DNA from: Desulfuromonadaceae bacterium
GTDB lineage: Bacteria > Desulfobacterota > Desulfuromonadia > Desulfuromonadales > JAAYDE01
Reading direction: 5' to 3'
Assembly (NCBI GenBank): GCA_012512925.1
Contig: JAAZDE010000127.1
Location: 1-34,834 of the forward strand
Length of the DNA: 34,834 nucleotides
This document shows positions 5,676-30,139 of this stretch, piece by piece; position 1 is the stretch's first letter, and the number at the start of each line of letters is the position of its first letter. The notes below the pieces were generated by a model. The model saw only the letters and a list, made by a program, of their open reading frames with translations, had not been told where the DNA came from and did no database searches. The translations under genes and the position numbers were made by a program.

Positions 5676-8186
5676 ATGTCTTTACGCCCTTTCCCTCCGC
5701 TGCCCATCGACAGCGTTCTTCCTGAAATTAAAAAAGCTCTGAATGTCCATGGCGCGGCGGTGTTGCAGGCGCCGCCGGGTGCCGGCAAAACCACGCGGGT
5801 GCCGCTGGCCCTGCTCGACGAGCCCTGGCTGACAGAGCGGTCGATCCTGATGCTTGAGCCGCGCCGCCTGGCGGCGACCAATGCCGCTGCCTACATGGCT
5901 TTTCTGCTCGGCGAGGAGGCGGGGGGAAGGGTCGGCTACGCCATTCGCTACCAGCGCCGCGTATCCCGGGAAACCCGCATCGAGGTGATTACGGAAGGGA
6001 TTCTGACCCGCCGGATGCAACGGGATCCGCTTCTGGAGGGGGTCGGCGCGGTCATTTTCGACGAGTTTCACGAACGCCATCTCCATTCCGATCTGGCCCT
6101 GGCCCTCTGCCTCGACGTCCGTTCCGCCTTGCGGCCGGACCTGCGCATCCTGGTCATGTCGGCCACTCTCGACAGCGAACCGGTGGCCCGTCTGCTCGGC
6201 AACGCGCCGCTGGTGACCAGCCGGGGAAGGGCGTTTCCGGTGACGGTCCGTTATCTGGTTCGCGATCCTGATGGAAATGTCGCCGACTATACCGCCGCGG
6301 CGGTGCGCCGGGCGCTGCGGGACCGCGATGGAGATCTGCTGGTTTTTCTGCCGGGAACGGGGGAGATTCGCCGTTGCCATGAACTTCTGGTCCAGGACGG
6401 CCGCTTTCCCGATGTGGAATTTCTCCCTCTCTACGGCGATCTCCCCTTTGCCGAGCAGCAGCGGGCCATTCTCCCGGGGGAGAGGCGGCGGGTGGTGCTG
6501 GCCACCAACATCGCCGAGACCAGCCTCACCATCGAGGGGGTGCGTATGGTCGTGGACAGTGGTCTGGCCCGCCGTCCCCGCTTTGATCCGGCTTCCGGCC
6601 TGTCGCGCCTGGAGACGGTGAAAATTTCCCGGGCCAGCGCCGAGCAGCGCGCCGGACGGGCGGGCAGGGTGGCGCCGGGGGTTTGCTACCGTCTGTGGAG
6701 TGAAGCGAGCCACGGCACCCTGCTTCCTTTCACGCCGCCGGAAATCCGCTCCGCCGATCTCGCCCCGCTGGGCCTGGAACTGGCTGCCTGGGGGATAACG
6801 GACGCTTCCGCTCTGTCCTGGCTCGATCCCCCTTCCTCCGGCGCTCTGGCCGGAGGAAGGCAGCTGCTGACCTGGCTGGGGGCCTTGGATGACCGGGGGA
6901 GGATCACTGCTCTGGGCCAGGAGATGGCGGAGCTGCCGATCCATCCCCGTCTCGGCCGCCTCCTGACGGCGGCCCACCGCTGGCAAATGGCGGCCTTGGG
7001 GTGTGATCTGGCCGCTCTGCTCGGTGAAGGGGATCTGTTCAAAAGGCGCTCCGCTTCGGGCTGTCGATCCAGAAACGATCTTCTCGATGCTTTCGAGGAG
7101 CAGGTCCGCCAGCGTCGGTGCAGCGGGGATAACTCTTCTTTCGCCGCCGTCGAACGGGCGGCCCTTTTCTGGCGCCGCCATTTGGGGGTCAAAGACGAGG
7201 GGAAACGGCCCGATTCCCGAACTGTGGCCCGTCTTCTAGCCCTCGCCTATCCCGAACGGATCGGCCGGGAACGCCGTCCCGGAAGCCGCAGCTATCTTCT
7301 CGCCGGTGGGCAGGGGGCTGTTCTCGCCCCTACTTCTTCCCTGCACGGCGAACCCTGGATCGTGGCGGCGGAGGTTTGTGAAGGCCAACGGGGTGAGGGG
7401 GAGATCCGCGTTGCCGCCGCCCTTGAAGGTGAAGATATCGAGAAACTTTTTGGAGCAGGGCTGCCCTGGCGGCGGGAGGTTGTCTGGGACGAGCGGGAGA
7501 AGCGGGTCACGACGCAGGAGGTGCGGCGGCTGGGCGCGGTTACGGTGGCGAGCCGGCCGCTGCAGGCCACGGCCGAGGAAGTCGCGGCGGCTTTGCTTCA
7601 AGGGATCCGCGGCATGGGGATGACGGCGCTCAACTGGAGCACAGGGGTTGAACTGCTGATGGCGCGGGTCCGTTTTGCGGCCGCCCTGTTCCCCGAGGAA
7701 GGATGGCCCGACTTCCGCTGCGAGGCGTTGCTGGAGAAAGTGGCGGAATGGCTGCTGCCCTTCCTCGGCGGCATCCGCTCCAGGGCCGAACTGGCCCGCC
7801 TCGATCTGGTGCCGGCCCTGTCGGCGCAACTTTCCCGACCCCAACGCAAAGCCCTCGATGAGCTGGCGCCGACCCACCTGACGGTGCCGAGCGGCTCCCG
7901 CATCCCCCTCGATTATGGTGCCGAAGGCGGTCCGGTGCTGGCCGTCAAACTCCAGGAGTTGTTCGGTCTGGCCGAAACCCCGCGTATCGCCGGAGGGAAG
8001 ATAACGGTGCTGCTCCATCTTCTCTCTCCGGCGCGGCGTCCCATTCAGGTGACCCGCGACCTTGGCCATTTCTGGCGGAAGGTTTACCCCGAAGTGAAAA
8101 GAGAATTGAAAGGACGCTATCCCAAACATCCCTGGCCCGACGATCCCTGGAACGCCGTGCCGACAAGGGGGACGAAAAGGAAATAA
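5676..8186 (+). CDS. hrpB: ATP-dependent RNA helicase HrpB
   Basis: 836 residues, close to the usual length of the bacterial DEAH/RHA helicase HrpB. Counting from an in-frame TTG three bases earlier, Walker A GAGKT is at 36-40, DEFH (motif II) at 130-133, SAT (motif III) at 163-165, and the QRAGRAGR motif VI is near residue 330. The C-terminal HrpB-specific region is complete and ends with WRKVYPEVKRELKGRYPKHP, a hallmark of the family. Such helicases unwind RNA with NTP hydrolysis; HrpB's own cellular substrate is poorly defined. The ATG at 5676 is preferred to the TTG at 5673. It lies in the VanZ-like gene's run with a 17-bp gap. A 499-codon antisense frame inside it is a GC-bias shadow. 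Confidence 0.93.
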   Translation: MSLRPFPPLPIDSVLPEIKKALNVHGAAVLQAPPGAGKTTRVPLALLDEPWLTERSILMLEPRRLAATNAAAYMAFLLGEEAGGRVGYAIRYQRRVSRETRIEVITEGILTRRMQRDPLLEGVGAVIFDEFHERHLHSDLALALCLDVRSALRPDLRILVMSATLDSEPVARLLGNAPLVTSRGRAFPVTVRYLVRDPDGNVADYTAAAVRRALRDRDGDLLVFLPGTGEIRRCHELLVQDGRFPDVEFLPLYGDLPFAEQQRAILPGERRRVVLATNIAETSLTIEGVRMVVDSGLARRPRFDPASGLSRLETVKISRASAEQRAGRAGRVAPGVCYRLWSEASHGTLLPFTPPEIRSADLAPLGLELAAWGITDASALSWLDPPSSGALAGGRQLLTWLGALDDRGRITALGQEMAELPIHPRLGRLLTAAHRWQMAALGCDLAALLGEGDLFKRRSASGCRSRNDLLDAFEEQVRQRRCSGDNSSFAAVERAALFWRRHLGVKDEGKRPDSRTVARLLALAYPERIGRERRPGSRSYLLAGGQGAVLAPTSSLHGEPWIVAAEVCEGQRGEGEIRVAAALEGEDIEKLFGAGLPWRREVVWDEREKRVTTQEVRRLGAVTVASRPLQATAEEVAAALLQGIRGMGMTALNWSTGVELLMARVRFAAALFPEEGWPDFRCEALLEKVAEWLLPFLGGIRSRAELARLDLVPALSAQLSRPQRKALDELAPTHLTVPSGSRIPLDYGAEGGPVLAVKLQELFGLAETPRIAGGKITVLLHLLSPARRPIQVTRDLGHFWRKVYPEVKRELKGRYPKHPWPDDPWNAVPTRGTKRK

Positions 8187-8191
8187 AGGGC

Positions 8192-8238
8192 TATAATGTA
8201 AACCCGTAGGGCGGCCGCAACCTTTAGCGCCGGGTTGC
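8192..8238 (+). promoter_or_regulatory. Possible promoter and leader hairpin of the DUF748 gene
   Basis: A perfect TATAAT at 8192-8197 lies just after the hrpB stop, but the -35 position (8169-8174, GGGGAC) is poor. A stem GCAACC (8217-8222) / GGTTGC (8233-8238) with a 10-nt loop follows in the presumed leader. It has no T tract, so it is not a complete terminator. Confidence 0.35.
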
Positions 8239-8279
8239 CGCGCATCTCCAAACCCAATCTATGTCCCGAGGTTTATTTT

Positions 8280-11200
8280 ATGATGAAGAAAATTTTCCGG
8301 TTTTATTCCGAGCATCGGCAGCGGATCCGGCGGATCGCGCTGTGGACTGCGGCTATTGTCGCCCTGTGGGCGGTGGGGATGGGGCTCATCCTGCCGCCGA
8401 TTCTCCGGCGTACCGCCGAAACTCAGCTTTCCAAAAACCTCGGCAGCGCCTGCACCCTCGAGCAGGTGAAATTCAATCCTTTCACCCTGCGCCTGTCCCT
8501 GAAGGATCTGCGCATCCCTCTGCCCGATGGCGGCGATTTTTTTTCTCTGGAGGGTTTCGAGGTGCGTCTCAGCCCGGCCAGCATCTACCGCTTGGCTCCG
8601 GTCCTCAGCGACCTGCGTCTCGTCGCCCCCAAAGTGAAGTTGGCATTGCGTAAGGACGGCCTGCTTTCCGTCACCGATTTGACCAAAAACCTGTCAAAGG
8701 AGACCCCCGCCGAAGAGGAGAAACCTCCGGCCGCCGAAACCGATCAGGGGATGAAGCTCTTTGGCGTGGTTGTCACCGATCTGGAAATCAAGGGGGGTGA
8801 CCTGCATTTTAGCGACGACATCCGTCAGGCGGAGCACACTGTCTCCGATCTCTCCTTTTTTGTCCCTTTCACCTCCACCCTGAACCGCCATCGTGACCAT
8901 CCCATCACCCCATTTCTCGAGGCAGTCGTCAACGGCCGTCCGTTGCGGGTGGACGGACAGCTGACCCCCTTCGCTGAGCAGCTGCGCACCGAATTCAACA
9001 TTCATCTCGACAACCTCGAACTGGCCCGCTTCCAGCCCTATGCGGCGCCCTTCACTGCCGCCGTGGTCAAGGATGGAAGTTTTAGCACGGAACTCGTTTT
9101 CAGCATGCTGCAACTCCCCGATACCGGCCTCCGCCTGGGTCTGGAGGGCAATGTGACCCTCAACGACCTGGACGTCCGCGCTCCGGATGGCAAGGAGGCG
9201 CTGCGTCTGCCCCGTCTGCGGGTGGATCTCGACGGCAGTCTCAATACGGCTGAAGGAATGACCCTGAGAAAGGTGGAGGTTCATGGACTGGAGGCGCGTC
9301 TGGCTCTGCTCGAGGACGGTCGCCTCGACTGGCTGAGCTGGATGAAAAAGAGCCCCGCCGGGGCCGAGACACCCAAAAAGGACGGCGCCCAGGAACCGCA
9401 ACTGCCGATCCATGTCGAACTCTTTGAATTCCGTGACGGACGGGTGCTGTGGGAGGACCGCAAGGTAGCCGGCGGTTTCCAGGCCAAGGCGGAACAGATC
9501 GCCCTCACCCTGTCCGGTCTCCACCTGCCCGGGACCGATCCCGCCGATCTGCAGGGAAGCATGACCCTCAACGAGGGCGGCCGCTTTGCTCTGGAAGGGA
9601 AACTGGCGGTGCTCCCTCTCAAGGGGGATATCCGCCTGCGCCTGGATGAGCTTTCACTGGCCGATTTTCAGCCTTATATCGCCGAGAGCGGCATTGCCGC
9701 CACCCTCGGCAAGGGCCTTCTGCGTTTCGCCGGACGTCTGGAACTGGCTGAAAAAGAAAATAATATCTCCATCTTTGTGAAAGACGGAGAGGCCGGTCTC
9801 AAGGCCTTGACACTGCTTCGCAACGACACCAAGAAGGCTTTTTTCGAGATGGGGGAACTGGCCGTGACCGGGCTGGCCGTCGATCTGCAGGAGCGGCAGG
9901 TGGAGGTGGCCCGGCTTCTCGTCAATCGCCCCGATCTGCGCCTGCGCCGCGACCGCACCGGGGCGATCGATCTGTTGGCTCTTCTGCCCCCGGAGCCTGC
10001 CCCTGTTGGCGCCGATAAAGCTTCCGCTCCCGCAGAGCCGGCTGCCGGGACCGAAGAGATGCCGTGGCGGGTGCGTCTGGCCGAGCTGAAATTGCAGGAG
10101 GGACGAGTATCCGCTACCCTCGAAGCGGCGCGGGAGACGACCACCGCCGTTTTCCACAAGCTGGCCGGCACCATCACCGGTTTCGACACGGTCCCCGGCA
10201 GCGCCCTCGGCATCGCCCTGAGCGGCAGGGGGGAAAAGGGAGGAGGGTTCAATGTTGATGGCAAGGCGCTACTGGAGCCTTTGGATCTCGATCTTCGACT
10301 CCGCCTCGACAAACTCAATCTCAAGCCGCTCTCGCCGATGTTGGCTGAGGTTTCCCCAAACCTGCGCCTGGGCAGCGGTGAACTGACCCTCAACCTTCAC
10401 AGCACGGTCAAGAAAAAGGGTGAAGAGAACCTGGCGCAGGTCAAGGGGCTGGCCGTTCTGGATCACCTTTCACTTCTCGACGTTCGTCAGGAGTTCGCCG
10501 CGCTACGTACCCTGCGGGTGCAGGATGTGGATATCGACACCGGCCGGCAGCGTTACGGCGCCGGCAAGGTTTCGGTGCTGCGCCCCCGTCTCAATCTGGT
10601 CGTGGCCAATGATGGCATAAACAATATTTCCCGGCTTCTGGGCGCCGCTCCCGCCGCCGAAGGAAAGGCCCCGGCTCCTGCTGCCACGGAGAAAACCGGC
10701 AAGGGCGATGAGCCCTATCTGCGCTTTGGTGAAGTGGCGGTCAGCGAAGGTTCGCTGATGGTGCGCGACGAGCGTTATCAGCCGGCGGTGACCAACCGCC
10801 TCGAAAAGATGGCGGTCACCGTCCGCGGCCTGGAAAGCGACCCCGACAGCAGGGCGCAGGTGGTTTTCAGCGGCGAACTGGACGGGGCGCCGATCAAGGG
10901 GGAGGGAACCATGAATCCCCTGCTGGCCGATTTCCGCATCGATCTGACGGCCGAGATGCGCACCCTCAATCTGGCGCCTTTCTCCCCTATGTCCGAGAAA
11001 TTTATCGCCTATCCGCTGAGGAAAGGGGCGTTCACCATCACCAGCAAAATTCTGGTCGATCAGGGGCGTCTCGATTCCCGGCACCGCATCAGACTGGACA
11101 GCCTGGAGCTGGGCGACAAGGTCAAATCGCCCGATGCTCCCGACCTTCCCGTCAAGTTGGGGGTCAGCCTTTTGCAGGACCCCTCCGGCAATATCAATCT

Positions 11201-14963: not shown

Positions 14964-16415
14964 TTATCTTTTCTTGCCGAGCATGGAGCCGAGGATACCG
15001 CGGATCAGCTGCCGGCCGACCTGGCTGCCGATGGCGTGGGCGGCGCTTTTGGCCAGTGCCTCGAACATCCCGACTTGCGAGCCCCTCCGCCCGGCGCGGG
15101 ACGGGGGCGGCTCGGCAGGGGCCGGCGCCTGTTCCGCCCGTCGGCTGAGGCGTTCGTAGGCCGAATCACGGTCGATGCTCTCCTGATAGCGCCGGTAGAG
15201 GGGAGAACTCCTGACGATGGTGTCCCGTTCCCGATCCTCCAGGGGGCTCATGCGGCTGACGGGGGGATAGATGAGGGCGCGCTCCACCATCGCCGGAATC
15301 CCCTTGTCGTCCAGAAAGGAAACCAGCGCTTCGCCGACCCCCAGTTCGCCGATCGCCTTTTCCACATCCAATCCGGGGTTGGCGCGAAAGGTTTGGGCAG
15401 CGGCCCGCACCGCCTTCTGGTCGCGGGGGGTGAAGGCGCGCAGGGCGTGCTGGACGCGGTTGCCGAGCTGGCCGAGGACTGCATCGGGCAGATCGAGGGG
15501 ATTCTGGGTGACGAAATAGATCCCTACCCCTTTGGAGCGGATCAGGCGCACTACCTGTTCGATCTTGTCCTGGAGGGCCCGGGAGACATCCTTGAAGAGG
15601 AGATGGGCTTCATCGAAGAAAAAGACCAGTTTTGGCTTGAGGGGATCGCCGACCTCGGGAAGTTGTTCGAAGAGTTCGGCCAGCATCCACAGCAGGCAGG
15701 TGGAGTAGAGGTTGGGGGAGGACATCAGCCGGTCGGCGGCGAGGATGTTGATGACACCGCGTCCCTCCGGGTCGGTGCGCATGAAATCGTCGAGATCGAG
15801 GGCGGGCTCGCCGAAAAAACGATCGGCGCCTTCCTCTTCCAGTCGCAACAGTCCGCGCTGAATGGCGCCGATGCTGGCGCTGCTGACATTGCCGTAGGCG
15901 TTGCGGAACTGGCTGGCGTTTTCGCCGACGTGCTGAAGCATGGCGCGGAGGTCCTTGAGATCGAGGAGCAGCAGGCCGTTGTCGTCGGCGATGCGGAAGA
16001 CCATGCTGAGTACCCCGCTCTGGGTCTCGTTGAGGTTCAGCAGGCGCCCCATCAACAGCGGCCCGACATCGGAAATCGTCGCCCGCACGGGATGCCCCTT
16101 GACGGCGAAGAGATCCCAGAAGACAACAGGAAAGCCGCGGTAAGTGAAACCTTCCAGATTCAGATCACTGGCCCTTTGGGCGATCTTGGCGTGGTTTCCT
16201 CCCGGATCGCACAACCCGGAAAGATCCCCCTTGACGTCGGCCAGGAAGACGGGCACGCCGGCGGCGCTGAAATTCTCCGCCAGCACCTTCAGCGTAACCG
16301 TTTTTCCCGTGCCGGTGGCTCCGGCTATCAGGCCGTGGCGGTTGGCCATGCGCGGAATCAGGTTGAGAACTGTCTTTCCTCGGGCGATCGGCAATCCGCC
16401 GGCATGAGTTTCCAT
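14964..16415 (-). CDS. HerA-like / YjgR-type ATPase (DUF853)
   Basis: 483 residues with Walker [14 protein letters not shown] (about 32-44), the [12 protein letters not shown] segment after it, and Walker [14 protein letters not shown] near residue 265. A later [30 protein letters not shown] block matches the YjgR/DUF853 family of HerA-FtsK superfamily ATPases. The C-terminal 60 residues include a Pro/Ala/Arg linker and then a short conserved tail ending in [11 protein letters not shown]. The physiological role is unsettled; a DNA- or protein-translocating motor is assumed from homology. The start has AGAGGA about 8 nt upstream. It follows the ABC permease on the same strand after a 135-bp gap and may have its own promoter, although none was clear. 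Confidence 0.85.
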
Positions 16416-18340: not shown

Positions 18341-19828
18341 TCAATCGAGATGGAGAAAACGGGTCACCATGAGGACGATGCTGACGCCGGTGAAAATCAG
18401 GCAACTCCCCCAGGCGAAAAAGGCCGCCAAGGGGGAAGGGTACCATTCCCGATTGTCCTTGGGAATGATCGAGAAACAGTAGTAGAGATTGAGAAAGAAT
18501 ATCACCGGAGCGATGATCACGGCAAGGAGGGAAGCGGTCAGGACGATGGCGGTCGGCTTGGGCCCTCCGAGAATGATGATGACCGAGGTGGCGAGGGAAA
18601 AGAGCATGGTCAGCCGGTAGATGTTGTATTCGGAATACCAGGTCCCGCGTTTGGCCGGGGTCAGGTCGGCCTGGGCGATGCCGGGAAGTTCCGCTGTTTT
18701 CCGGAAGAGGTTCCGGCAGCAGGCCCCGACCACCCTTGGCCAGCCGTCGAAGTAGTTGAAGGCAGTAGAAAAGGCGGCGGCAAAGACCCCCAGCAGCAAG
18801 ACGATCATCATCCATGGGCCGACGGCGAAGATTTTGGGGTAATCCGCCGCGATGTCCGCACTGTTGTGTCCCGGAAAGATCCAGATGGCGGCGATCAGCA
18901 GGAAGATGCAGGCCGAGGCGAAGGAGACGATCTGGCCGCAGCGGTAGTCGCTGAGGCTTGTTTTCATCCAGCGCCGGCAGTATTCCCGGGCATGAGGAGG
19001 GAGCCGGCCCATGTCGACGGCGAGATCCTTTTTGGCCGGAGCGAAGGGGTCGAAACGGGGCGCCAGGTTGAGGTCCTCCAGCAGGGGACGGATGTTGACG
19101 ACCCCCGCTTTCTTGGCCCGCACCCATTCGGAGGCCTGCAGGGAGACGTCCATCCCCGTCGGCAGCAGCCCCAGAAAGGCGCTGATGATGATCCATGAGC
19201 CTTCCGGAGTGTCGAGAATGGCAAAGTGGCGGAAGGCCGATAGAGGTGCCGGCTCCACCAGGTAGATCATGAGCTGGGAGACGATCAGTATTCCCGCCAG
19301 CCATTTGCAGGCGGTCTCCACGGCATGGTACCCACCGCGCAGGATGATGGTGACCGACAGCAGGGCCAGAAAGAGGGCGTAGACCCCCATCGACAGAGGG
19401 AGGCCGAAGTAGACGCTGAAGATGTAGTAGGTGACGGCGGCGGCGGCGATCAGGCGGCCGGCCTGGCCGATGCAGCACTGAATCAGGGTGGTCAGCAGCA
19501 TATACCAGAGGGGCCATTTCATCCAGGCCGTGGCATAGGCCTCCATAATGCTTTTGCCGGTGGCGTTGGTGAAGCGGATGGCCATTTCGTAGCCGTAGTA
19601 TTTCAGGATATAGGCCAGAGGAATGACCCACAGCAGATCGTAGCCGAAACGACCGCCGGCGGTAGGCGCCGTGATGATATGACTGGTGCCGATGCCGGTC
19701 ATCATCAGGATGATCCCCGGCCCGAAATTTCGCACCATTCCGCTGAAATTCATCTTCGGCAGTTCAAGGGCTTCCAGTTCGGGGAAGCCGTCATCCCTTT
19801 TTTTATCTTTGTCTTCCTTGGCGTTCAT
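18341..19828 (-). CDS. Second divergent Nramp-family transporter, in an operon with an ABC exporter
   Basis: A 495-residue polytopic membrane protein of the Nramp fold. The first helix reads GPGIILMMTGIGTSHIIT and continues GGRFGYDLLWVIPLAYILKY, aligning with MntH so that DPGN is replaced by GTSH. In the TM6 position the sequence is GLLPTGMDVSLQAS, where MPH is not preserved. The classical Mn/Fe ligands are therefore absent and the substrate unknown. A charged cytoplasmic N-tail (KEDKDKKRDD) and a long soluble loop around residues 265-310 (RPLLEDLNLAPRFDPFAP) are additions compared with the other Nramp-like protein of this window. The start is firm: CCAGGAGG lies immediately upstream. It leads an operon with the ABC ATPase and permease. 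Confidence 0.77.
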   Translation of the reverse strand: MNAKEDKDKKRDDGFPELEALELPKMNFSGMVRNFGPGIILMMTGIGTSHIITAPTAGGRFGYDLLWVIPLAYILKYYGYEMAIRFTNATGKSIMEAYATAWMKWPLWYMLLTTLIQCCIGQAGRLIAAAAVTYYIFSVYFGLPLSMGVYALFLALLSVTIILRGGYHAVETACKWLAGILIVSQLMIYLVEPAPLSAFRHFAILDTPEGSWIIISAFLGLLPTGMDVSLQASEWVRAKKAGVVNIRPLLEDLNLAPRFDPFAPAKKDLAVDMGRLPPHAREYCRRWMKTSLSDYRCGQIVSFASACIFLLIAAIWIFPGHNSADIAADYPKIFAVGPWMMIVLLLGVFAAAFSTAFNYFDGWPRVVGACCRNLFRKTAELPGIAQADLTPAKRGTWYSEYNIYRLTMLFSLATSVIIILGGPKPTAIVLTASLLAVIIAPVIFFLNLYYCFSIIPKDNREWYPSPLAAFFAWGSCLIFTGVSIVLMVTRFLHLD

Positions 19829-19864: not shown

Positions 19865-19892
19865 TTGATTTCCCTTTCCACTTCCCTATAAT
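19865..19892 (+). promoter_or_regulatory. Sigma-70-type promoter of the JAMM-DinG gene
   Basis: TTGATT (19865-19870) and a perfect TATAAT (19887-19892) are separated by 16 bp, about 29 bp before the ATG at 19921. It lies in the 92-bp divergent gap to the Nramp-like gene, whose own promoter on the minus strand must overlap it. AAGGGA at 19904-19909 is the likely ribosome-binding site, though 11 nt away. Confidence 0.65.
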
Positions 19893-19920: not shown

Positions 19921-22449
19921 ATGAAGGACGTTTTTTCAGAGGCGGCGCGCCGCGACATCCGGTCGGCCATCGCCGAGGCGGACGGAAACGAGGTCTTCCT
20001 GGTCGGAACCACTGATGCTTCGCTGCGGCTGGAAAAGGTCGCGGTGGTGGCCCGCGGCTCTCGCGAGGCGGTTCCCGCGGTAACCGCGGGCTGCCGTTTT
20101 GGCGACGTGGTTATCCACAACCATCCTTCCGGCGATTTGCACCCATCGACGGCCGATCTGGACATCGCCGGCCGTCTGGCCGGGCTCGGCGTCGCCTTCT
20201 ACATTGTGGATAACTCTGTGGAAAATGTGTATAAGGTGGTTGAGCCATTTGCCCCCCGACAGATCTCCCCCATCGACTATGCCGATCTGGAAAAAATCTT
20301 CGCCCGCGACGGCCAGATAGCCGCCGTTCTGGCCGGTTTTGAAGAGCGTCCCGAACAGCTGCGCATGGCTTTTCTGGTGGCCGAGGCTTTCAATGGGGAG
20401 AAGCTGGCTCTGGTGGAAGCCGGCACCGGCACCGGCAAGAGCCTGGCCTACCTGGTTCCGGCCATCCTCTGGGCGGGAGTCAATCGGGAACGGGTGGTGG
20501 TCTCCACCAACACCATCAATCTTCAGGAACAGCTGCTCAGCAAGGATATTCCCTTTCTGCAGCGGGCCACCGGCCGTTCCTTCAAGACCGCTCTGATCAA
20601 GGGGCGAAGCCAGTATCTTTGCCTGCGCCGCCTGGAAAGCGCCCGTCAGGAGCCGGGTCTCTTCGAGTCCCTCCAGGAGCAGGAACTGGCCGACCTCTGC
20701 AACTGGAGCCGGCAGGCCGAGGAGGGTTCCCGCAGCGAGCTTCCTTTCGTTCCCAGCGAAGCAGTCTGGGAGGAAGTCTGCAGCGAGTTCGACCAGTGTC
20801 TGCGGGTCCGGTGTCCCGAATTCGGCAGATGCTTCTTCCATCAGGCCCGCCGCCTCGCTTCCCAGGCCGATCTGCTGGTGGCCAATCACGCCCTGGTGCT
20901 GACCGATCTGGCCATCCGCGTTCACAGCGGCAACTATTCCTCAGCGGCCATTTTACCGCCCTGCGAACGCCTGATTCTGGATGAGGCCCATCATCTGGAG
21001 GATGTGGCCACCCGCTTTTTTTCCCTGGAGGTGAGCCGTTTCTCCTTTGCCCGGCCTCTCAACCGGCTGCGTCATCCCCGCAAGACGGACAAGGGCTTCC
21101 TTCCCAAGTTGCTGCTCAAGTTGGCGACACTTCTTCCCGCCCATGAAAACGTCCTTTATGCCCGATTGTTTGAAAGAATCCAAACCCTGAGCGGGGAATG
21201 CGGGGAACTGCACGGGGCCGCGGTCAGCGAACTGGAAGGGGTGGCCGAGCAACTGCTGGCCTTCCTCGATAGGCCAAAGAAGGAGGGGGAGGAACTCCGT
21301 TTCCGGATTACCGATTCTTTCGCCGCTTCCGCGACCTGGGGGATGATCCGGCAACGGCTGGAAACTCTGGAAACGGAGGTCCGGGCCATGGTGGCCGGGC
21401 TGGAGGAGCTGCTCAACGAGTGTGAAGCTCTGGAAGAGGGATTTCAGGAGGAGCTTCTTCCCCTGCTGACCGACATCCAGGCCATCTACGGCCGTCTGGA
21501 GCGGCTGGCCGACGGTTTGCAGAAAATCTCCTTGCGGGAGGCTTCCGTCTGCGTCTGGATCGAGGTGGCCGAGGGACGGATCGGGCGCGGCAAGGGAACC
21601 GTCTGCCGCCTCTGTTCAGCCCCTCTGCAGGTTGCCCCCATTCTCCGTGACGCCCTTTTTGACCGCCACAAGACGGTGGTAATGACCAGCGCCACCCTGG
21701 CGGTGGGAAAATCCTTCCGTTATTTCAGGGAGCGCGCGGGTCTCGATGGTGTCGGCGCCGACCGTCTCCTGGAACTTCAACTCTCCTCCCCTTTCGATTT
21801 TCGGCGGCAGGCGCTGGTCGCGGCGCCGAGGGATCTCCCCGAACCGGGCAGCGGCGGGTATCCGCGCATGGTCAGAGAGCTTTGCGAGCGGGCGATCGTT
21901 GCCGCCGACGGCAGAACCTTCGTCCTCTTCACGGCCTACTCGCTGTTGAAATCGGTATTCACCGAGGCCGCGCCGGTTCTTAACGCCCGTGGCTTTCACT
22001 GTCTGCGCCAGGGGGAGGAGAACCGCCACCGTCTGCTGAAAACCTTTGCCGCCGATCCCACCAGCGTCCTCTTCGCCACCGACTCCTTCTGGGAGGGTGT
22101 GGACGTGCCGGGAAGGGCGCTGGAACAGATCATCATCACCCGGCTCCCCTTCCGAGTACCCACCGATCCGATCCTCGAAGCGCGGGCCGAGGCCCTGGAG
22201 AAAGCCGGCGGCGATCCCTTCCGGGAATACACCGTTCCCCAGGCGGTGATCCGCTTCAAGCAGGGGTTCGGCCGCCTGATCCGCAACCGCACCGACCGCG
22301 GGGTGGTGCTGATTCTCGACAGCCGGGTGGTGAACAAGAGTTATGGGCGGATCTTTCTGGAGTCCCTCCCCGGCCCCAGCCTGGTCGCCGGCGGCGTGGA
22401 GGAGGTCTTTGCCGCCGTGGAGCGCTTTTTCGCCGGTTTCGGGGAGTAA
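19921..22449 (+). CDS. JAMM metalloprotease domain fused to DinG/XPD-type iron-sulphur helicase
   Basis: 842 residues in two parts. Residues 1-110 form a JAMM/RadC-like domain with H66-x-H68-P-S-G...S76-x2-D79, exactly the ExnHxHx7SxxD zinc signature, and a candidate Glu24. Residues about 140-840 are a DinG-type superfamily 2 helicase: Walker A GTGTGKS (168-174), DEAH (354-357), SAT near residue 585, and QGFGRLIRNRTDRG near the end. Four cysteines C234, C293, C298 and C304 match the 4Fe-4S site, with the same C-x4-C-x5-C spacing as E. coli DinG. DinG unwinds DNA structures 5' to 3'. Some bacterial homologues carry an N-terminal DnaQ exonuclease; here a JAMM domain takes that place. What the JAMM part cleaves or binds is unknown. 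Confidence 0.88.
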   Translation: MKDVFSEAARRDIRSAIAEADGNEVFLVGTTDASLRLEKVAVVARGSREAVPAVTAGCRFGDVVIHNHPSGDLHPSTADLDIAGRLAGLGVAFYIVDNSVENVYKVVEPFAPRQISPIDYADLEKIFARDGQIAAVLAGFEERPEQLRMAFLVAEAFNGEKLALVEAGTGTGKSLAYLVPAILWAGVNRERVVVSTNTINLQEQLLSKDIPFLQRATGRSFKTALIKGRSQYLCLRRLESARQEPGLFESLQEQELADLCNWSRQAEEGSRSELPFVPSEAVWEEVCSEFDQCLRVRCPEFGRCFFHQARRLASQADLLVANHALVLTDLAIRVHSGNYSSAAILPPCERLILDEAHHLEDVATRFFSLEVSRFSFARPLNRLRHPRKTDKGFLPKLLLKLATLLPAHENVLYARLFERIQTLSGECGELHGAAVSELEGVAEQLLAFLDRPKKEGEELRFRITDSFAASATWGMIRQRLETLETEVRAMVAGLEELLNECEALEEGFQEELLPLLTDIQAIYGRLERLADGLQKISLREASVCVWIEVAEGRIGRGKGTVCRLCSAPLQVAPILRDALFDRHKTVVMTSATLAVGKSFRYFRERAGLDGVGADRLLELQLSSPFDFRRQALVAAPRDLPEPGSGGYPRMVRELCERAIVAADGRTFVLFTAYSLLKSVFTEAAPVLNARGFHCLRQGEENRHRLLKTFAADPTSVLFATDSFWEGVDVPGRALEQIIITRLPFRVPTDPILEARAEALEKAGGDPFREYTVPQAVIRFKQGFGRLIRNRTDRGVVLILDSRVVNKSYGRIFLESLPGPSLVAGGVEEVFAAVERFFAGFGE

Positions 22450-28048: not shown

Positions 28049-30139
28049 ATGAATCGCTCGGTTTCAAAGTTCCTTCTGTCAATCCTACTTTTCGGGCTCT
28101 TTTTCAGCTCTTTTTCAACGGTACGGGCCGAAGAGCGCCCGGGATTCGAAGCCGACCGGGCCAAGGTCCTGAGCTTCATCATTCGCCAGCACCTTACCCG
28201 CTTTCATTTCAGCCAGAAAACTTTTGATGATGAGCTGTCGAAAGCGGCTTTTTCCCTGTTCCTGGAACAGGTCGATTTCCAGAAAAGATTTCTGACCGCT
28301 TCCGATGTGCTTCAACTCAAATCGTATGAGATGCTGATCGACGACGAGATGGTTCTCGGGCAGATCGATCTGCCTGTGCTCTGTTTCCGGTTGATGAAAC
28401 AGCGGGTGGAAAAGGTGGAGAAGATGGTTGAAAAACTGCTTCTCGGCGGTTTTGATTTCAATGCTGAGGACCAGTTCGAAACCGACCCCAAAAAACGTCT
28501 GTTTTGCACCACTGACGAAGAGTTGGAAGATCATTGGCGCAAGCTCCTCAAGTATCAGATCATCCTCAATTACCTGAGCCTCGTGGAAGAGCAGCAGGAG
28601 AAGAGGACCAGGGATGGAATTCTTTGGAAAACAGCCACGGAGAGAACCCGCAAAAGTTTTCGCAGCCTCTTTTCCCGTTTGCGCCGGCAGGATCTGCGAA
28701 CCTATTACTCCCTTTATCTGAATGCGGTGTCCCGCGCCTTTGACCCCCACACGCACTACCTCGATCCCAGCACGGAAGAGGATTTCGATATCAGCATGAA
28801 GGGGTCTCTGGAAGGAATCGGCGCGAGTCTTCGGGAGGATGACGGCTCCATCAAGGTAGTCGATATCATTCCCGGCAGTGCTGCGGCGCGGCAAGGACAG
28901 CTGGCCAAGGAAGATGTCATCCTCAAGGTGGCTCAGGGGGACATGGACCCGGTGGATGTTTCCGAAATGCGCCTGCGGGATGCGGTCAAAATGATTCGCG
29001 GCAAAAAAGGGACGGAGGTCCGCCTGACGACCCAGAAGCCGAACGGCGATATTCTCGTGGTGCCTATCGTGCGGGATGTGGTCAATATCGAGGAAACCTT
29101 CATCAAGGCCGCTGCCCTGGTGGGCAAGGGGAATCCCTCCCAGTTGTTCGGCTATGTCCATATCCCCTCTTTTTACAGGGATTTGAGTTCCCCCGGCAGG
29201 GACGGCGGGGGGCGGAACGCTTCCGATGACTTTAGAGCCGCCCTGGAGCAGCTTGAGTTGGAAAGAGTGCGGGGAGTGATTATCGATCTGCGCAACGACG
29301 GTGGCGGAGCGCTCCAGGACGCTGTCAATATCGCCGGGTTTTTTATCGACCAGGGACCCGTCGTGCAGATCAAGGACAGCCAGGGAAGGATCAAAACCCT
29401 CTTCGATCCGGAGGATGGGATTGTCTATTCGGGCCCGGTGGTGGTTCTTGTCAACAAGTTCAGCGCTTCCGCCTCGGAGATTCTGGCCGCAGCCCTTCAG
29501 GATTACGGAAGAGCGATCATCGTCGGGGGAGAACATACCCATGGCAAGGGGACGGTGCAGGCGCTGATCGATCTGGATCAGGGCTATTATTCCAGGAAAA
29601 TGGAGAGGTTTGGACCCTTGGGAGCCCTCAAGGTGACCATTCAGAAATTTTATCGCATCAATGGCGATTCGACCCAATATCGGGGAGTCATTCCTGATAT
29701 CGTGCTGCCCGACCTGCTCTCTCCCCTGGAAAGCGGCGAACGCTATATGAGTAATTCCCTACCCTGGGACAAGGTGCCGGCCGTTGAATATGAGCCCTGG
29801 CCGGAGGAGAGCGGCGATCTGGAGACTCTGCGGCAGAGAAGTCTGGCCCAAGTGGACAAGAACCCCGCATTTTCCCGTATTCTCGATGAGATTGAACTGG
29901 AGCGCCAAAAGATCGCCAATACCCTCAGGCCGCTGAATCTGGAGAAGATTCGTCAGGAACGCAAAGAAATCGACAAGATTCGCAATGGGGAGGAAGTTCT
30001 CTTCGATGATTACATGGTGCAGGAGAAAACCGCTTCTTCCCGCAGGGAGAACGACGAAAAGAGCCTGACAAGCCAATTGGTCCGGGATCCTTATGTGCGG
30101 GAGGCGTTCCGTATTCTCGATGAGGTGACCCGCAACTAG
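28049..30139 (+). CDS. Carboxy-terminal processing protease, Prc/Tsp type (S41A)
   Basis: 696 residues, the length of the Prc/Tsp subgroup and far longer than CtpA. The order is: signal peptide (1-27), a long helical N-terminal domain containing RAFDPHTHYLDPSTEEDF, a PDZ domain (about 255-345, GIGASLREDDGSIKVVDIIPG), then the S41 peptidase domain. The Ser-Lys dyad is Ser474 in FSASASE and Lys500 in HGKGT, aligned with Ser430 and Lys455 of E. coli Prc. It degrades or trims periplasmic proteins with nonpolar C-termini and controls envelope turnover. The C-terminal helical tail is intact. The ribosome-binding site is weak (GGCAGG). It converges with bamD. Confidence 0.9.
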   Translation: MNRSVSKFLLSILLFGLFFSSFSTVRAEERPGFEADRAKVLSFIIRQHLTRFHFSQKTFDDELSKAAFSLFLEQVDFQKRFLTASDVLQLKSYEMLIDDEMVLGQIDLPVLCFRLMKQRVEKVEKMVEKLLLGGFDFNAEDQFETDPKKRLFCTTDEELEDHWRKLLKYQIILNYLSLVEEQQEKRTRDGILWKTATERTRKSFRSLFSRLRRQDLRTYYSLYLNAVSRAFDPHTHYLDPSTEEDFDISMKGSLEGIGASLREDDGSIKVVDIIPGSAAARQGQLAKEDVILKVAQGDMDPVDVSEMRLRDAVKMIRGKKGTEVRLTTQKPNGDILVVPIVRDVVNIEETFIKAAALVGKGNPSQLFGYVHIPSFYRDLSSPGRDGGGRNASDDFRAALEQLELERVRGVIIDLRNDGGGALQDAVNIAGFFIDQGPVVQIKDSQGRIKTLFDPEDGIVYSGPVVVLVNKFSASASEILAAALQDYGRAIIVGGEHTHGKGTVQALIDLDQGYYSRKMERFGPLGALKVTIQKFYRINGDSTQYRGVIPDIVLPDLLSPLESGERYMSNSLPWDKVPAVEYEPWPEESGDLETLRQRSLAQVDKNPAFSRILDEIELERQKIANTLRPLNLEKIRQERKEIDKIRNGEEVLFDDYMVQEKTASSRRENDEKSLTSQLVRDPYVREAFRILDEVTRN

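Follow-up and report, generated by a model that had tools for sequence, protein, structure and literature searches.

A RadC-type JAMM domain joined to a YoaA-like iron-sulfur helicase in Desulfuromonadales: conservation, natural variants and a putative role in DNA repair

A stretch of 34,834 nucleotides (nt) from a Desulfuromonadaceae bacterium (assembly GCA_012512925.1, contig JAAZDE010000127.1), which will be referred to as the window, contains an open reading frame (ORF) spanning positions 19921-22449 of the plus strand, which starts with ATG and encodes a product of 842 amino acids (aa). A RadC-type JAB/JAMM domain at the N-terminus is followed by a complete YoaA/DinG-type iron-sulfur (Fe-S) helicase. 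An initial annotation, made from the sequence alone, had described the ORF as a JAMM/RadC-like metalloprotease domain fused to an Fe-S DinG helicase, with the zinc signature HxH-x7-S-x2-D at H66, H68, S76 and D79. Coordinates and residues were found as described, the conserved glutamate E24 is added here, and the placement in Desulfuromonadales holds. The features of the gene are as follows.

19921..22449, plus strand: radC-like dinG gene, with homologues in 38/38 other sampled genomes of the order, nearly all full length
19921..20256, plus strand: RadC-type JAB/JAMM domain, residues 1-112 (Pfam RadC, AlphaFold2, Foldseek, hhalign)
19990..19992, plus strand: E24, the conserved JAMM glutamate (E in 131/135 homologues, a gap in 2 of the remainder)
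20116..20124, plus strand: H66-N67-H68, metal-ligand motif (134/135 homologues)
20146..20157, plus strand: S76 and D79 of the JAMM motif (each 133/135 homologues)
20296..22446, plus strand: YoaA/DinG-type Fe-S superfamily 2 (SF2) helicase, residues 126-842 (NF053712 YoaA; Foldseek to DinG 6fwr)
20416..20442, plus strand: Walker A, EAGTGTGKS, residues 166-174 (E166, A167, G170, G172 and K173 invariant in 57 sequences)
20620..20832, plus strand: Fe-S cluster region with C234, C293, C298 and C304 (4/4 invariant in 57 sequences)
20980..20991, plus strand: DEAH box, residues 354-357 (D354, E355 and H357 invariant)
22396..22443, plus strand: C-terminal helix, residues 826-841, counterpart of YoaA alpha-7 but without R619/T620 (AlphaFold2 secondary structure, C-terminal alignment)

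The assignment of the N-terminal domain to the JAMM/RadC group was confirmed by sequence and by structure prediction. With the N-terminal 117 aa as query, Pfam RadC (PF04002) matched residues 63-90 (E 4.4e-8), and Prok-JAB gave an E of 0.038 only. A 47-sequence profile of the domain detected C. tepidum RadC 2qlc (E 3.6e-7) and, weakly, AfJAMM, and profile-profile comparison with hhalign aligned it with canonical RadC at 97.3% probability. The AlphaFold2 model of residues 1-122 (predicted local distance difference test, pLDDT, 90; predicted template modelling score, pTM, 0.83) shows a JAMM-type fold, for which Foldseek listed C. tepidum RadC 2qlc as top PDB match (E 4.6e-6), followed by BubCD and Rpn11 homologues, with modest TM-scores (template modelling scores) of about 0.45-0.6. 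Thus both the JAMM/MPN+ pattern E...HxH-x7-S-x2-D and the MPN fold are present in sequence and predicted model. The domain belongs to the same JAB clade as canonical RadC (UPF0758; E. coli YicR, C. tepidum 2qlc) and shares its HNHPSG...PSxxD signature. Unlike canonical RadC, the fused protein has the JAB part alone, without RadC's N-terminal part, and then the helicase; moreover, the invariant D-H of RadC near the JAB end is D-N in the fused protein. The N-terminal part of canonical RadC is an HhH region.

For this domain the initial annotation had offered two functions, cleavage of peptide or isopeptide bonds or a RadC-like, DNA-linked role coupled to unwinding. Judged from the RadC type and from the absence of the ubiquitin-type E2 family Prok-E2 in 37 of the 39 nearest relatives, the second fits better and the first less well. 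An active JAMM (iso)peptidase might act on DNA-bound proteins along the helicase track and rid them of protein adducts or of a ubiquitin-like tag, possible targets being DNA-protein crosslinks or blocked replication proteins; the complete E-HxH-S-D site and the Foldseek matches to BubCD and Rpn11 are in line with such an enzyme. However, the sequence match and the best structure match are to RadC and not to JABs that process ubiquitin-like proteins, RadC JABs have been argued to lack a groove for the ubiquitin tail (PMC5512222, PMC3482391), and Prok-E2 matches were obtained in 2/39 relatives, one of them above the family cut-off. We therefore regard a peptidase as unlikely. As to the co-occurring ubiquitin-like genes that the initial annotation had proposed to look for, a ubiquitin-like system was rejected on the Prok-E2 count, a search that did not extend to ThiS/MoaD.

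The alignments show the JAMM domain to be conserved as strongly as the helicase (67.3% and 65.5% identity, respectively, over 528 pairs within the window's own order), and its zinc-site residues to be under purifying selection. E24, R45, G46, H66, N67, H68, P69, S76, D79 and N98 are invariant in the 47-sequence domain alignment, which omits two degenerate homologues, G034 and G204. Homologues lacking zinc-site residues, which the initial annotation had considered as an argument against its assignment, amount to just these 2 of 135. Both are fused. In G034 (locus L053, 6618-9125) the glutamate is changed to A, the serine to T and the aspartate to E; in G204 (locus L044, 6566-9043) E, HNH, S and D are all altered, with RVR in place of HNH. 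In both proteins the JAMM domain drifted more than the helicase, with 32% versus 49% identity in G034 and 31% versus 43% in G204.

These variants bear on the view that the domain is mainly a non-catalytic MPN-type docking or regulatory module with a structural zinc site, serving to position the helicase or to bind DNA or some partner. G034 and G204 retain the domain despite their degenerate residues, and G069, described below, lacks it and encodes a full RadC next door. Against a docking module, the catalytic-type glutamate and serine are kept in 131/135 and 133/135 homologues, beyond the metal ligands, and relaxation of the whole domain in G034 and G204 fits a lost function rather than a retained scaffold. 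Overall, a purely non-catalytic module seems rather unlikely.

G069, a single draft genome of the sister order, carries the helicase without the JAMM domain (G069:C59), a true absence that is nested among fused relatives. At this locus (L305) a canonical full-length radC gene (7433-8125) lies upstream of the helicase gene (8181-10400) on the same strand, with 55 nt between them, and this radC is the sole RadC-family gene of the genome. In G029 (L089, 6039-10055) one strand carries, in this order, radC-dinG, an ORF that by eye resembles an SGNH esterase, and canonical radC; radC-dinG and the esterase-like ORF overlap. In 19 genomes assembled into a single contig or into long contigs, the distance between radC and the helicase gene was within 125 kb in ten cases, nearer than expected from uniform placement (Kolmogorov-Smirnov test, p 1e-7, a value inflated by kinship among the 19 genomes). 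The split in G069, the gene order in G029 and the shortened distances suggest, without proving, that RadC and the radC-like DinG helicase work together. A general linkage of radC and helicase in genomes without the fused JAMM domain was rejected, as radC was located inside the flanking sequence in 1/19 only.

The Fe-S helicase assignment was likewise corroborated, with the Walker A, the DEAH box and the four cysteines invariant over 57 sequences, and could be narrowed to the YoaA branch. Since the best family match is NCBIfam repair_DEAH_YoaA (NF053712, E 2.6e-174), ahead of the DinG models, the helicase is by sequence nearer to YoaA than to DinG proper, although its score of 581 bits lies under the equivalog cut-off of 680 bits. 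The full-length AlphaFold2 model (pLDDT 89.8) matched DinG 6fwr in Foldseek (E 7e-39), and a 5'-3' polarity is what we infer from the family. With E. coli YoaA the protein shares the closest helicase family model, the Fe-S cysteines and the C-terminal helix; it differs in having an N-terminal domain, in lacking R619/T620 and in a C-terminal loop that is about 5 residues longer.

YoaA needs R619/T620 for HolC (PMC8378479). HolC co-occurrence is also the second criterion for YoaA in Cheng 2025 (PMC11981726). The same paper argues that RadC-like DinG does not use its C-terminal helix for HolC, since the encoding organisms are without HolC. We detected HolC in 38/39 nearest genomes and in 64 of the 75 own-order genomes of the class sample, including the named species Pelovirga terrestris and Geothermobacter hydrogeniphilus, and W57 and F64 were kept in the HolC copies inspected. 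HolC was found in none of the 71 genomes of the sister order (a count that takes the unlisted genomes as sister-order genomes) and in 0/7 of genus g36. The window's own draft genome (213 contigs) likewise gave no HolC match, either through loss or through an assembly gap; a relative from the same genus has it. HolD was absent from all 39 nearest genomes. The R619/T620 pair was present in 0/35 fused proteins of the own order, 0/11 of the sister order, 0/9 others and 0/74 from a public-genome scan, and the altered C-terminus is much alike in genomes with and without HolC. The published premise thus breaks down for the order to which the window belongs, and is valid for the sister order, g36 and, apparently, the window's draft genome. 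The conclusion drawn from it still looks right, because R619 and T620 are never both present. These counts correct a published statement that had served to dismiss a link to HolC. HolC as an obligatory partner was rejected, since the sister order and g36 lack it and the RT residues are missing.

Alternatively, the protein might do no more than serve this order as its YoaA, being recruited by HolC and gaining little from the JAMM domain. This would agree with the closest family model, with HolC in most genomes of the order and its conserved W57 and F64, with the general lack of HolD and with the presence of the C-terminal helix. Since none of the fused proteins counted has the R619/T620 pair, HolC-less lineages retain the fused protein, and the window's own draft genome yielded no HolC, we consider it quite unlikely.

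That the domain pair might be fixed in Desulfuromonadales, as the initial annotation had proposed to examine, is borne out. The gene is encoded in 39/39 genomes of the nearest sample, and across the class, whose sample covers the order of the window and one or more sister orders, the helicase is present in 145/146 sampled genomes and the JAMM domain is attached to it in nearly all whose contig extends far enough. Matches starting after the JAMM domain, further examples of which are G147 and G093, include among those inspected individually contig-end fragments (e.g. G087, G128), G020, whose gene is split over two contigs with an intact JAMM domain in L293, and G069. In the rest of the phylum about ten sampled genomes have the fusion, and nearly all other matches begin at about residue 106-135. 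The public-genome scan yielded 80 loci; in 74 the domain is followed by a complete helicase, and the other 6 are truncated by the end of a contig. A few come from metagenome-assembled genomes (MAGs) that carry the labels Calditrichota, KSB1, Dadabacteria or Chloroflexi; the one labelled Chloroflexi groups within the window's order and is probably mis-binned. In a helicase-only tree the JAMM-less helicases and E. coli YoaA formed one group apart from the fused proteins (Shimodaira-Hasegawa-like approximate likelihood ratio test, SH-aLRT, 97), and the distribution of the two types requires no more than two changes of state, namely a single gain (or split) and the G069 loss. This quick tree, with some deep forks unsettled and E. 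coli DinG as a long-branch outgroup, is compatible with one origin of the fusion. A phage origin was rejected: among 80 viral loci with RadC-like JABs, none had a YoaA/DinG helicase match.

We tentatively favour, with somewhat less than even confidence, the view that RadC-like DinG is a housekeeping repair helicase carrying in cis a zinc hydrolase of RadC/JAMM fold that most likely acts on DNA, its catalysis being putative. Where a fork has stalled or an end is damaged, the helicase would load on exposed single-stranded DNA and unwind, and the RadC domain, at the position that DnaQ holds in ExoDinG, would cut or trim the unwound material, its most likely target being a nucleic-acid end or a lesion. 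The system is probably independent of HolC and of a ubiquitin-like conjugation system. A nucleic-acid substrate is favoured by the RadC affinity, by the DnaQ-equivalent position and by how rarely ubiquitin-type E2 genes occur; a contextual argument for RadC JABs as nucleases was made by Aravind and colleagues (PMC5512222, PMC3482391). ExoDinG, the DinG of B. subtilis and S. aureus with DnaQ, likewise has a hydrolase N-terminal to an XPD/DinG helicase, and the remark in the initial annotation on a DnaQ exonuclease at the same place agrees with this literature. In ExoDinG the hydrolase is a DEDDh exonuclease and here it is a JAMM fold, the N-terminal part having no exonuclease Pfam match.

Several points weigh against this interpretation. 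The degenerate sites in G034 and G204 imply that catalysis is dispensable in some lineages, and canonical radC occurs alongside the fusion in nearly every relative's genome, so that redundancy is possible. We found no reported activity of any RadC JAB in the literature, and a published view cited in PMC11981726 holds RadC to be unrelated to repair. No conserved operon partner was found across the order in an all-against-all ORF comparison of 41 loci. Finally, none of the LexA boxes of the E. coli, Bacillus, Geobacter or alpha type is common to the orthologue upstream regions; a lineage-specific box is possible.

More specifically, the fused RadC domain may work in cis with the Fe-S helicase as an active nuclease that depends on metal, or as a hydrolase of DNA adducts, which we consider possible, if on the unlikely side. 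It would then be, as far as we know, the first nucleic-acid-cutting JAMM enzyme and a clue to what stand-alone RadC does; as in G069, stand-alone RadC may substitute for the domain from a neighbouring gene. RadC is widespread (PF04002 matches in 8/14 control genomes) and without an agreed function, and a helicase-fused RadC-type JAB is a good place to find one: the helicase part offers a phenotype and a substrate class, and the G034, G204 and G069 variants represent natural controls.

The architecture itself is already known, and the present gene is a further member. RadC-DinG fusions were noted, and a nuclease suggested, by Iyer et al. in 2017 (PMC5512222), and Cheng 2025 (PMC11981726) defined the "RadC-like DinG" subgroup and described it as having had no research; we likewise came across no experiment on it. 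The initial annotation, which knew of no functional description, was therefore right on function; the architecture had been published. The subgroup, for which a Desulfuromonas soudanensis protein was modelled as the type, is described there with an N-terminal RadC-like domain with E/H/H/D (here E24, H66, H68 and D79), a YoaA-like Fe-S helicase whose ATP, DNA and metal residues are conserved here too, and a C-terminal alpha-7 (here helix 826-841). Our data differ in the presence of HolC in this order and in the degenerate and split variants, of which the section compared makes no mention. Four points are new relative to the published accounts compared, as far as these show: how widely the fusion is retained, that both domains are equally conserved, these variants and the HolC correction.

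Upstream of the gene, one element recurs among orthologues:

19887..19892, plus strand: TATAAT (-10-like) hexamer, 34 nt 5' of the ATG

Of 34 orthologues in the order, 26 have it within 150 nt upstream, at a distance of 14-42 nt from the start, compared with a mean of 0.9 in shuffled sequences. Control by the SOS response was rejected, as the tested LexA box types are not shared upstream and TATAAT alone is. Divergent from the helicase gene lies an Nramp-family transporter gene (18341-19828, minus strand), with 92 nt separating the start codons. A gene for a HerA-like C-terminal (YjgR-type) ATPase is located at 14964-16415 on the minus strand (PF05872, E 2e-222). A tail-specific protease gene with TSP_NTD, PDZ, S41 and DUF3340 is located at 28049-30139 on the plus strand, and ORFs homologous to it occur close to radC-dinG at 11 of 41 compared loci, counting the window.
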